From Amphibalanus amphitrite (taxonomy: Eukaryota; Arthropoda; Thecostraca; Balanomorpha; Balanidae), in the NCBI RefSeq assembly GCF_019059575.1, contig NW_024882757.1, positions 1 through 64,000 of the forward strand: a stretch of DNA of 64,000 nt, in the 5' to 3' direction. Positions within the stretch are counted from its first letter, which is position 1; each line of letters starts with the position of its first letter. A program made the translations under genes and the position numbers. The notes below the pieces were generated by a model. The model saw only the letters and a list, made by a program, of their open reading frames with translations. It ran no database searches and had not been told where the DNA came from. Shown one piece after another: positions 1,848-42,769 of this stretch.

Positions 1848-2706
1848 CCCTCGTATGTGTAGGGGTGGGATGGACCCCCATGAGTTTTCGCGAATAACTC
1901 ACGTAAAAAGCGGCCGATCGCGACGAGACTTTCAGTATCCTCGAGATGATCAATTTTATACATACTCTGAAAATTTCATGACCCTGACCCAAATGACCTT
2001 TGACCTGTGACCTATTTCTCGAGACCATGTTTGGCCGGAGTCGCGATTCAGCGTATGTCAGCTCTCATTATCCGCGTGTTTCTAATATTTTTGCGATTAT
2101 AAACGTCCAAACATGTGAAATGATGTTCGCCCCATGCATTACGGTGGGTGTCAAGGTCACCTGAAGGTCAGGTCAGGTCAGGTCATTGACCTATGATGAC
2201 CTCGTGTCACTTTTCCGAGGTATACATGTTTCTAGGGCAGTTTTTCGGGCTGATTTCGAATTTAGCATCCATTTGAACATTTACGAAGTAGTTTTGGTGC
2301 CTTTGTTATGTGTTACGACGCCACCAGTGGTAGTTGAGACCTACTATGGGTAGCCGGCAGGACGCCTAATGGCTGACCTGACCTGACCTGACCCGACCTG
2401 GTCTAAATGCACGAAGACATCATATGTGATCAAAACTAGCATGAAATTCGTGATCAGCACCCCCAAAAACAATACAGCTTCACTGTACGAAGCTCTTGCA
2501 GGTCCCGATTTTTCTGACCACTGGGTCATTGACCTGACCTGGAAGGTCAACCAATGACCTAGGACCTTAAATTGGATATCATCGGTTTCCTCTCGTCACG
2601 GGCAACACGCTCGTTTTTTCGCAAAGCTCTAGCGCGATCTGGAGCCAAAAGGCAGAGGGGTCCAACCGACCCCCCCCCCACACACACACGCACACACACA
2701 CGTTAG
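1848..2706 (-). mobile_element. TTAA/CCCTCGC-family non-autonomous element, reverse orientation, decayed right end
   Basis: TTAA at 1844-1847 is followed by CCCTCGTATGTGTAGGGG, matching the right terminus (reverse complement) of the copies at 38482 and 41874. The interior runs backwards relative to those copies: GTTTTCGCGAATAACTC, the GGTCAGGTCAGGTCA tract at 2168-2185, then the GATC...GGAGCCAAA and GGGGTCCAACCGACCCCCCC blocks at 2636-2680. The expected right terminus is replaced by a (CA)n tract (2680-2702) and no second TTAA is found, so the end is eroded. This is the innermost layer of the 1290-5514 nest. Confidence 0.65.
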
Positions 2707-2996
2707 ACGTTAGCGGAAAGTTGCGGCGTGATGGCCGTGGTTCGACCACGCTTTCGGGATGACAGAGTGGCTGTACCCATGCTGGGGCCAGGTCTCACGG
2801 CTCCGCGAAGTGGGGACGATTCGGAGCTACTCGAGGTTATGCTTTCCAGCTCCACTTGGTCGGCTGCCGCCCGCGCCTCCTCCGACGCGACGCCTTGCTC
2901 CTCCTCCTCTCTTCGGCGTCATCCCTCCTCCTCTTCTTCTTTTCTTGGGAATGGAGCGCCATGTCTGCCTCTGTCATTCTATCCCGTCTCCCTGGC

Positions 2997-3383
2997 TCAC
3001 GTTGGGCGAGAAGGAAGGCGCGATCTTCCGGGATGGTTAGGTATCAAGGACATTGCGTCACCGTGGGCGATATCAAAGATATTTTCCAGTTGTTTCTTGA
3101 ATACGTCCTCGTTGCTTGTTTGGGTGGCGGAAGTCCTGTTCTTGTTCTTTTTCAGGCGTTTCCACTCGTCGAAGAGAGTTTCCACCTTCTTGACCGCTCT
3201 CCCTTTGTGCTGGGTGGGATTCCTGGCCCTGGCCCAGAACTCCTCTACTCTAGTACCTTCTCTAACGTCCGGTTGGCCGCTTCCCGGACCGTTTCCTAGA
3301 GGATTTGGTGGCGGTGGAGGAAGTAGGCGAGAGATTGGCCGCGGGATGGGAGCTTGCATAGGTGGTGGAACGGGAGGGGGCAC
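2997..3383 (-). CDS. Fragment of a repetitive-element-type open reading frame (uncertain)
   Basis: A 128-residue minus-strand frame starts with a proline-rich stretch. It then has a helical-looking, charged segment (about residues 45-115) containing EEFWARARNPTQHKG, LFDEWKRLKKNKNR and LENIFDIAHGDAMSLI. The pattern 'Trp ... Pro-Thr-Gln ... Trp-x-x-Leu-Lys-Lys ... Leu-Phe-Asp-Ile-Ala-His-x-Asp-Ala' resembles, from memory, uncharacterised proteins present in many copies in arthropod genomes. It lies inside the 8-bp-TSD element, which suggests the frame belongs to that element. I see no splice context or polyadenylation signal and cannot assign a function. Confidence 0.35.
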   Translation of the reverse strand: MPPPVPPPMQAPIPRPISRLLPPPPPNPLGNGPGSGQPDVREGTRVEEFWARARNPTQHKGRAVKKVETLFDEWKRLKKNKNRTSATQTSNEDVFKKQLENIFDIAHGDAMSLIPNHPGRSRLPSRPT

Positions 3384-3889
3384 CGGAGCACCGTGCCCCC
3401 CTTAATTTTGCCATTTTAGTATAGCCCTATGGGCGTTGCATGGAAAGAATGGGACCAAAAGTCGGCAGTGCCCCCCCCCCCCCTAATTGAAGGTGTTCCG
3501 CCGCTACTGGGAACTTGGAGCCAAGGAGTTCATAACTGGGGGACACCATGTACCCAGAAGTTTGCGACGCAGACAACCGTTACACCTGAGGAAGAGGGAA
3601 CGAACGTTGATCGACGAAATGGACATTGAGCGAACATTGACGAACGAACGAGCGTTGAGCTACCAGTAAATAATGAAGTAGGGATCTGAAATTTTGACAG
3701 ATATGTTTTTTCGTTAAACGGCACCGATTGAAGGGGCGCAAGGTATCCAAATACGATTTTCGAAAATAAGGACCACCCTAATGGGTATGTTGCTTTTGAT
3801 CGCGAAAGCTAAGCCCTGTCTCGCGTTTGTAGGTAGCTAGTCAATACTCGTTCCATTTCGGCACAATGTGTTGGCTTCTTTGCTCTTAA

Positions 3890-41003: not shown

Positions 41004-41104
41004 GATATATATATATATATATATATATATATATATATATATATATATATATATATATATATATATATATATATATATATATATATATATATATAATATA
41101 TATA
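41004..41104. repeat. (TA)n microsatellite
   Basis: A nearly pure TA tract of about 100 bp. The Tyr-Ile frames on both strands are artefacts. Confidence 0.97.
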
Positions 41105-41869
41105 AATGAGCAAAACAGAGTTGAGGTAAAAGTTGGACTAGTACACGGTAAAAGATGAACAACGCTGGATACGTTCAAATTTACAAGCATTATGTATTAG
41201 GCAGGGCAAATAATAAATTTAGCAATCAGGTACTGACGAAGTGTCATTTCTTAATCTTCCTCTGATAGATAATTGTAATTCGCATTAGTTCCATGCTATA
41301 CTGAGGTACAAAACTGTTTAAGTTGTTTGGTTTTTAACAATTTTTACCTCAGTGTAGCCCGAAACAACAACGCATTATAATAAATTGAGCAATTATGTAA
41401 CTATCTACGCATGATCGCAATGCGCAATAGCTTGATATATTTTTGGACTCTCGTTCGCCATAATTTCCCAGCAAATTACAGGCAATCTTCACAGAACAAT
41501 GACGACAACGGTATTCATAAGGAAGGACTTCGGGGAACTTGGCCACGGCGAGTGAGGGCGTTCGTTTCCACCAGGGAGCTTTTGAGCCACGAATACATCC
41601 GCTACGTCGATCGTCAGATTCGCTGAAGGCTATATTGATAGTTTGTAGAAGCTGACCGGAAGGAACATGTGGTCCTTATCTGTGTGTGTCTCTCAGAAGA
41701 AGTCCACAAGTGGGTTTTCCCTCACCAGTGATCACTTGAAGCGCGTTTGGTCGAGTGAAGACGCTATCATGCGTCTTGGGGCTAAAGGGGTGATGCAGAC
41801 AGCGGATATGTGATGTGGCCAGGGTATTAGAAATCAGCGCAGCATATGCCTTAGACGCCAGCCCTATTC
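41105..41869. other. Unassigned intergenic sequence
   Basis: No supported gene or repeat. Confidence 0.4.
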
Positions 41870-41873
41870 ATAA

Positions 41874-42769
41874 CCCTCGCATGTGTGCGGCGTTTGTCAC
41901 CTTCTTACGTGTAGGGATGGGGGGGGGGGGTCGGTTGGACCCCCCTTGCCGTTTGGCCCCTGATCGAGCTAGAGCTTCTCGGAGAGAAAAAAAACAAGCG
42001 TGTTGCCCGTCACGAGACGAAGCCGATGATACCCAATTTTAAGGTCCTAGGTCATTGGTTGATCTTGCAGGTCAGGTCAATGACCAAAAAGTCGGGAAAA
42101 TCTGGACTTGTTAGAAAGTCGTAAAGTGTGGCTGCTATGGGGTTTTCGGGGTGTTAATCGCGAATATCGTGTTAGTTTTGATCACAGATGATGTCTTTAG
42201 GCATTTAGACCAGGTCGGGTCAGGTCAGGTCAGGTCAACCAGTAGGGGTCGTGACGGGTATTCGTAGTAGGTGTCAACCGCCTCTGACAGCTTTGTAACA
42301 TGCTACGAAGGCACCAAAACTACTTCGTAAATGTTCAAATGGTATCTTAATTCGAATTAATCTAGAAAAACTAGCCCAGAAACATGTAAACTCGAAAAAG
42401 TGAACCGAGGTCACCAAAGGTCAATGACCTGACCTGACCTTTAGGTGACCTTGACATTCACCCTAATGCATGGGAGCAACATCGAATCACATGTTTGAAC
42501 GTTTGAAACCACGAAAAGCTTGCAAACGCGCGGCTAATGCGAGCCGACATACGCCGAATCGCGCTTCCGGCCAAACATGGCCTCGAGAAATAGGTCACAG
42601 GTCAAAGGTCACTAGGGTCAGGGCCATGAAATTTTCAGAGTCGGTGAAAATTGATCAACTCGAGGGTACTGAAAGTTTCGTCGCGATCGGCCGCTTTTTG
42701 CGCTAGTTATTCGCGAAAAACCATGGGGGAGGGGGTCCATCCGACCCTCCCCCCCTACACATGCGAGGG
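41874..42769 (+). mobile_element. CCCTCGC-family element with ATAA instead of TTAA target site
   Basis: An 896-bp copy closely matching 38482-39362 along its whole length, with termini CCCTCGCATGTGTG and its complement. The flanking tetranucleotide is ATAA on both sides (41870-41873 and 42770-42773), a true duplication of a non-canonical target. It carries AGGTCAATGACCA (42074-42086) and the perfect AGGTCAATGACCT (42418-42430). Non-coding. Confidence 0.9.

Follow-up and report, generated by a model that had tools for sequence, protein, structure and literature searches.

AGGTCA words enriched within piggyBac-type elements of an Amphibalanus amphitrite contig, a candidate mobilisation signal

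The first 64,000 nucleotides of contig NW_024882757.1 of Amphibalanus amphitrite (NCBI RefSeq assembly GCF_019059575.1, forward strand; hereafter the window) contain inverted repeats of AGGTCA with one-base spacing (IR-1), the form bound by the ecdysone receptor EcR-USP. A preliminary description had proposed that transposons spread such hormone-receptor sites here, with one copy lying inside a myosuppressin intron. What, then, is the unit that these transposons carry, and what keeps it intact? The carriers are eight piggyBac-type, apparently non-autonomous elements, grouped in four families: A (copies A1 to A4), B, C and D (copies D1 and D2). We show that in family A AGGTCA itself, rather than IR-1, is the constrained unit, and we propose, with a probability of roughly one in two, that it is recognised by the machinery that mobilises the elements.

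AGGTCA is enriched in the elements and conserved in family A

Enrichment was assessed against dinucleotide shuffles and ranked among hexamers occurring at least three times. AGGTCA is the top enriched hexamer in A3 (17 occurrences vs 0.55 expected), B (20 vs 0.56) and C (7 vs 0.27), and is second in D1, behind a C/G run (12 vs 0.49); when these four family representatives are pooled, 55 occurrences are found where 1.76 are expected. Its density is 14.31 per kb within elements and 0.96 elsewhere in the window. The GGTCA arrays described earlier around the IR-1 sites were likewise recovered (18.4 GGTCA per kb inside elements vs 3.1 outside). Seventeen of the 54 AGGTCA words outside the elements lie in two places: six in a probable D-like remnant (24936-25291, plus strand) that has one tip (TTAACCCGCACCCCGCTGG, minus-strand reading) and whose other end was not found, and 11 in CTGAC-rich sequence ahead of the first coding exon of myosuppressin. 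Among the 18 single-letter neighbours of AGGTCA, ACGTCA is prominent (17 vs 1.76 expected) and GGGTCA is raised 3.8-fold (9 vs 2.38); CGGTCA, AGCTCA, AGGTCC and ATGTCA reach 2.2- to 2.9-fold on 3-6 occurrences, while the remaining 12 stay below 2-fold, five being wholly absent.

The layout of the words is also shared. In all four families, 161-168 bp separate the 5' tip from the first AGGTCA of either orientation. Families A and B have in common an 18-base stretch, TTTTAAGGTCCTAGGTCA, whose last 12 bases are also present in C. The A consensus contains 16 AGGTCA words, half of them in 5-bp tandem, with clusters about 170-190 bp apart. At isolated GGTCA sites, position -1 is A in 33 of 44 cases and T in none. 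TGACGTCA, which has the same GTCA core and which we take to be a CREB/ATF-like palindrome, occurs at 19 places in the window, 11 of them in elements, and is frequent in B, C and D. This frequency could be read as a sign that the host retains the sites for another purpose, for example through a silencing or insulator protein acting on AGGTCA arrays; such an explanation requires selection on each dispersed copy and is in our judgement highly improbable.

To measure conservation, the four family A copies were aligned and mismatches counted against the majority. Only 3 of 364 cells are mismatched in AGGTCA columns, compared with 237 of 2721 in the other inner columns, and none of 776 circular shifts of the motif mask reached so low a mismatch. 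The six bases flanking the words on each side are mismatched in 23 of 270 cells, and the constraint thus ends at the word edge. When a column was counted as motif if any one copy carried the word there, a choice that reverses the bias, the values were 4/368 vs 236/2717, and private changes summed over copies gave 3/355 within the motif and 158/2046 outside (Fisher 2.6e-8). For 33 hexamers unrelated to AGGTCA, the pooled value is 217/3053, with shared columns counted more than once. In pairwise comparisons, AGGTCA is intact in the second copy in 174 of 183 cases and other hexamers in 2572 of 6595, the pairs being non-independent. Outside the words, the A copies diverge pairwise by 8-22%. In family A, mismatches are about ten times rarer in AGGTCA than in the sequence around it.

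Could such a contrast arise where the words have no function? The arrays might derive from an ancestral (AGGTC)n simple repeat, with slippage, gene conversion or uneven mutation mimicking conservation. That half of the A-consensus words stand in 5-bp tandem agrees with this, as does the extra unit that A1, alone among the copies, carries at one IR-1 position (site 'b', below); a (CTGAC)n array at 37952-38008, moreover, lies outside all delimited elements. Yet isolated words are kept like tandem ones (2/192 vs 1/172 mismatches), and the word recurs at a matching 5' offset in four families. CpG decay as the source of the contrast was ruled out, since CpG columns (31/383 mismatched) are no different from the rest. 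We therefore consider an origin without function improbable. TCAGG, of which (AGGTC)n is a rotation, is the beetle telomere repeat; a telomere-repeat origin was set aside because isolated words hold the AGGTCA register.

The half-site, not the palindrome, is the constrained unit

A re-scan of the window recovered all eight IR-1 sites of the preliminary description at exactly their coordinates. Perfect sites, AGGTCANTGACCT, start at 2180, 6658, 39026 and 42418, and one-mismatch sites at 2523, 18313, 38671 and 42074. A ninth site, which had been overlooked, lies at 19605-19617 (AGGCCAGTGACCT, one mismatch) and stands in A2 where other copies have the perfect site. By arithmetic (64000/4^12), about 0.004 perfect IR-1 would be expected by chance in 64 kb. 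The sites are, however, not independent, as eight of the nine represent two homologous positions, 'a' and 'b', in four family A copies. Site 'b' reads AGGTCATTGACCT in A1 (2180-2192), AGGTCAATGACCT in both A3 (39026-39038) and A4 (42418-42430), and the mutated form given above in A2. Site 'a' reads GGGTCATTGACCT in A1 (2523-2535), AGGTCAATGACCC in A2 (18313-18325) and A3 (38671-38683), and AGGTCAATGACCA in A4 (42074-42086). Because the family A consensus at site 'a' is already AGGTCAATGACCC, these sites look ancestral rather than like decayed palindromes. The IR-1 of B (6658-6670, AGGTCAGTGACCT, with TGACGTCAT before it) aligns with site 'b' (25 bp, 92% identity).

IR-1 within one mismatch is thus present in five of the eight elements, A1-A4 and B. 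Family D has none at up to one mismatch, and in C two IR-1-like sites, separated by 187 bp, are degenerate, in both cases in the left arm. C also contains an internal direct repeat (19175-19270 and 19362-19458, 187 bp apart), each copy of which has TGACGTCAT and TGACC words.

In the four family representatives, 53 pairs of half-sites are spaced at gaps from -1 to 8, most often as a 5-bp tandem overlap (direct repeat with a gap of -1, DR-1; 15/53) and next as a direct repeat with a gap of four (DR4; 9); IR-1 accounts for three pairs, as do the inverted repeats IR5 and IR6. DR4 was set aside as a separate signal, because in a 5-bp array every second unit necessarily stands at DR4 spacing. When gaps and orientations were shuffled, the three IR-1 pairs showed no significant excess given the half-sites (mean 1.6, P=0.19). 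Nor are IR-1 arms in family A better kept than other half-site bases (2/96 vs 2/292 mismatches). Intact IR-1 does prevail across the copies, so the outcome that the preliminary description had named as a refutation did not arise: six of eight family A sites keep the family sequence, where background divergence would leave 2.7 (P~0.02, taking the copies as independent). The half-site constraint, however, suffices by itself to produce this retention. The constrained unit is the AGGTCA half-site.

These observations bear directly on the proposal that the elements spread functional EcR-USP response elements, through which neighbours such as myosuppressin would gain an ecdysteroid response. Seven of the nine IR-1 sites fit the Drosophila ecdysone response element consensus, RGKTCANTGAMCY, given in PMC3498158, one copy (A3) does lie within the myosuppressin intron, and Alu repeats offer a precedent for the dispersal of receptor sites (PMC1785376). 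The consensus also permits AGTTCA, which is not enriched (1 vs 2.05 expected; GGTTCA was left uncounted). Besides the lack of an IR-1 excess, its absence from D and its broken forms in C, gene-regulatory selection on every scattered copy would be hard to expect. We regard this proposal as quite unlikely. What survives of it is that the transposons disperse AGGTCA half-sites and, with them, a few IR-1 palindromes; IR-1 as the relevant unit does not.

Element ends and a candidate mobilisation signal

All elements were delimited by self-comparison and inspection of their ends; the ends of B and C were set with the help of a TTAA search, those of A and D also by homology. Family A comprises A1 (1844-2690, minus strand; 3' tip at 1844 with TTAA, 5' tip lost in a CA/GT simple repeat, so that 2690 is approximate), A2 (18109-19947, plus; TTAA on both flanks), A3 (38478-39366, plus; TTAA on both flanks, CCCTCGC tips) and A4 (41870-42773, plus), in which the 4-bp duplication is ATAA in place of TTAA. 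A2 is interrupted by the nested C (18615-19560, plus; TTAA on both flanks). B (5806-6831, plus; 20 AGGTCA) has TTAA on both flanks and CCCTCGC tips, and D1 (3886-5078, plus; 12 AGGTCA) has TTAA on both flanks and CCCGCGC tips. D2 (36168-37359, minus; TTAA on both flanks) lies inside a repeat of which an uninterrupted copy is found at 47356-47832 (minus). Comparison of the D2 flanks with this paralogue at 47705-47745, where a single TTAA stands, shows that the insertion was precise, for this one element.

An identical 4-bp flanking duplication is thus seen in seven of seven two-ended elements (TTAA in six, ATAA in one). Of the 15 tips seen, 14 have CCCTCG or CCCGCG; the exception is one A2 tip, CCCTCC. 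The piggyBac-type hallmark is terminal inverted repeats (TIRs) starting CC[C/T]T (PMC2872659), which is matched by the CCCT at 11 of 11 tips in families A, B and C. Family D, with CCCG at four of four tips, keeps CCC but departs at the fourth base, and is for this reason filed less firmly. These marks (duplications, tips and empty site) are of the piggyBac type. Five stop-free frames overlapping the elements gave no credible Pfam match (one 9-residue match, E=0.16); this check left out two frames of at least 90 aa (5534-5821 and 42673-42957) that are mostly outside the elements.

Two further features were noted near the ends. Beside the tips, at 38516-38552, 39325-39350, 3930-3965 and 36185-36215, a G-run and a C-run with a short loop (e.g. 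GGGGGGGGTCGGTTGGACCCCCCCCCC) appear able to fold into long hairpins, and in each of A3, B, C and D1 the four hexamers with the strongest enrichment include CCCCCC. A diverged phrase, GGTACTGAAAGTTT..CGTCG (58 bp, 76% identity; 39220-39330, 4934-5030 and 19814-19915), is found close to the 3' tip, on its inner side, in both A and D, which suggests that the families descend from one ancestor.

Why would a six-base word be kept in such elements? Neutral decay after insertion would strike words and spacers alike, whereas in family A the words stayed nearly unchanged while the spacers drifted; some protein therefore probably reads AGGTCA. We favour the reading that the word is a site recognised by the machinery that mobilises the elements, either transposase or host cofactor, and that it is kept by selection through transposition. 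The internal feature shared by the families is AGGTCA, single and in 5-bp tandem, beginning at a near-constant distance from the 5' tip; it would be read by the transposase of an autonomous partner not seen here, or by a DNA-binding protein of the host that this transposase uses. Selection would have preserved AGGTCA for as long as the lineages remained mobile while the rest of the interior drifted, and IR-1 palindromes would form where arrays of opposite orientation meet. The scarcity of private changes in the words, the intact duplications and the 8-22% divergence elsewhere fit young insertions from long-lived, diverged lineages that needed AGGTCA to move. Two precedents are in keeping with such a role: binding of transposase to repeated hexamers in subterminal positions and to palindromes is known in the piggyBac superfamily (PMC11707139), and coral piggyBac-type miniature inverted-repeat transposable elements (MITEs) keep their internal region better than their TIRs, for which the authors speculate a role in transposition (PMC2872659).

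The serious rival, and also the most interesting version, is that the arrays are bound by a nuclear receptor of the host that serves the element, for instance by opening chromatin or by timing mobilisation in the germ line, effects on neighbouring genes being secondary; it owes this standing to AGGTCA being the nuclear-receptor half-site. The enriched word is exactly that half-site, down to the preference for A and avoidance of T at -1, the constraint is sharply confined to six bases, and the tandem arrays also yield DR4 spacing. Variants that a receptor tolerates are, on the other hand, weak or absent (GGGTCA and AGTTCA, above), and in the largest pair class the words overlap by one base, so that two receptors presumably could not fill both. 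We hold this possibility to be unlikely on balance. A bolder form is speculative, and we give it little weight: piggyBac-type elements would have taken over the host half-site as a signal essential to their transposition, a receptor for a molting or reproductive hormone would thereby help to time or place mobilisation, and the copies would make up a dispersed, constrained receptor-binding landscape.

Several points weigh against a mobilisation signal. The conservation test rests on four related copies of one family; the comparison of D1 with D2 points the same way but has too few differences to decide (1 of 70 motif columns and 38 of 1120 others, 39/1190 in total), and in A some unrelated hexamers that cover few cells show little mismatch too, the best being AAAATT (1/71). 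The duplications of B and C are partly ascertained, their ends having come from the TTAA search. Words first appear some 160 bp inside the tip and continue across the interior, deeper than the end motifs of the piggyBat element, and a transposase as reader leaves the exact identity with a nuclear-receptor half-site as coincidence. Finally, neither an autonomous partner nor a transposase was seen within the window.

Surrounding features and comparison with known systems

A3 lies wholly within the intron at 38233-40040 of a plus-strand gene (ATG at 38031, donor at 38233, acceptor end at 40040, second exon from 40041), as described earlier. The spliced exons encode a 96-residue myosuppressin-like precursor ending QDMDHVFLRFGRSGV; we presume the gene to be myosuppressin from its FLRF peptide motif, and the first-exon reading frame matched no Pfam family. 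The (CTGAC)n array mentioned above, with the five-base unit of the element arrays, lies a little upstream of the point where the first myosuppressin coding exon appears to be spliced in.

Pfam searches with eight reading frames of the window matched two. One, at 50760-51713, encodes an RNase H domain (RVT_3; 4e-16) that interrupts a long 39/48/87-bp minisatellite at 49990-54000 and is probably a piece of a non-LTR (long terminal repeat) retrotransposon. The other, on the minus strand at 45982-46464, encodes a ZSWIM4-8 C-terminal domain (1.3e-59). In addition, a 146-bp stretch is duplicated without any difference at 15307-15452 and 16062-16207, 755 bp apart. In viral contigs, the sole outside sequence scanned, the long IR-1 pattern and the shared 18-mer had no match, and a 17-letter tip pattern hit 10 loci that we take to be chance matches.

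Among the titles and abstract beginnings listed from an open-access collection, we found no arthropod TTAA element with AGGTCA arrays, and no paper of that collection joins AGGTCA, TTAA, transposon and inverted repeat. The mPok MITE of the crustacean Daphnia (PMC3849761) resembles the present elements in its TTAA duplications with some ATAA, which makes up 5.09% of Daphnia Pokey target sites (one of seven elements here), and in being large and non-coding (~750 bp); the accessible text of that paper does not mention AGGTCA arrays. The coral MITEs (PMC2872659) are likewise TTAA families with CCC tips and an interior better kept than the TIRs, but they are ~100 bp long with a continuous conserved block of 75 bp, whereas ours are ~880-1190 bp with a dispersed six-base word.

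If a host receptor were the reader, the elements would be a direct case of transposons that depend on a transcription factor of the host, and the copies that lie near genes, such as that in the myosuppressin intron, would become testable regulatory inputs. Alu, a retroelement, is a mobile family that multiplies nuclear-receptor half-site pairs. According to PMC1785376, most of its DR2 retinoic acid response elements were created from a non-consensus motif through CpG deamination, and several are receptor-bound in chromatin immunoprecipitation; the words described here are candidate binding sites that appear ancestral and constrained. The RSINE1 circadian enhancers (PMC8240256) similarly exemplify a transposon family that seeds motifs for host factors, nuclear receptors included. 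There, the motifs matured by point mutation after transposition, while here they were apparently present at insertion and have hardly decayed.

The end motifs of piggyBat (PMC11707139) consist, like ours, of repeated hexamers and imperfect palindromes, and are bound by a piggyBac-superfamily transposase. The piggyBat hexamer GCGGGA lies within 120 bp of the left tip, whereas AGGTCA begins about 160 bp in; if the reader of AGGTCA is a transposase, the known piggyBac end structure would extend far into the element. Kept in one family and enriched in three more that share little else, AGGTCA suggests a code for protein recognition in an interior that usually passes for filler between the terminal repeats.

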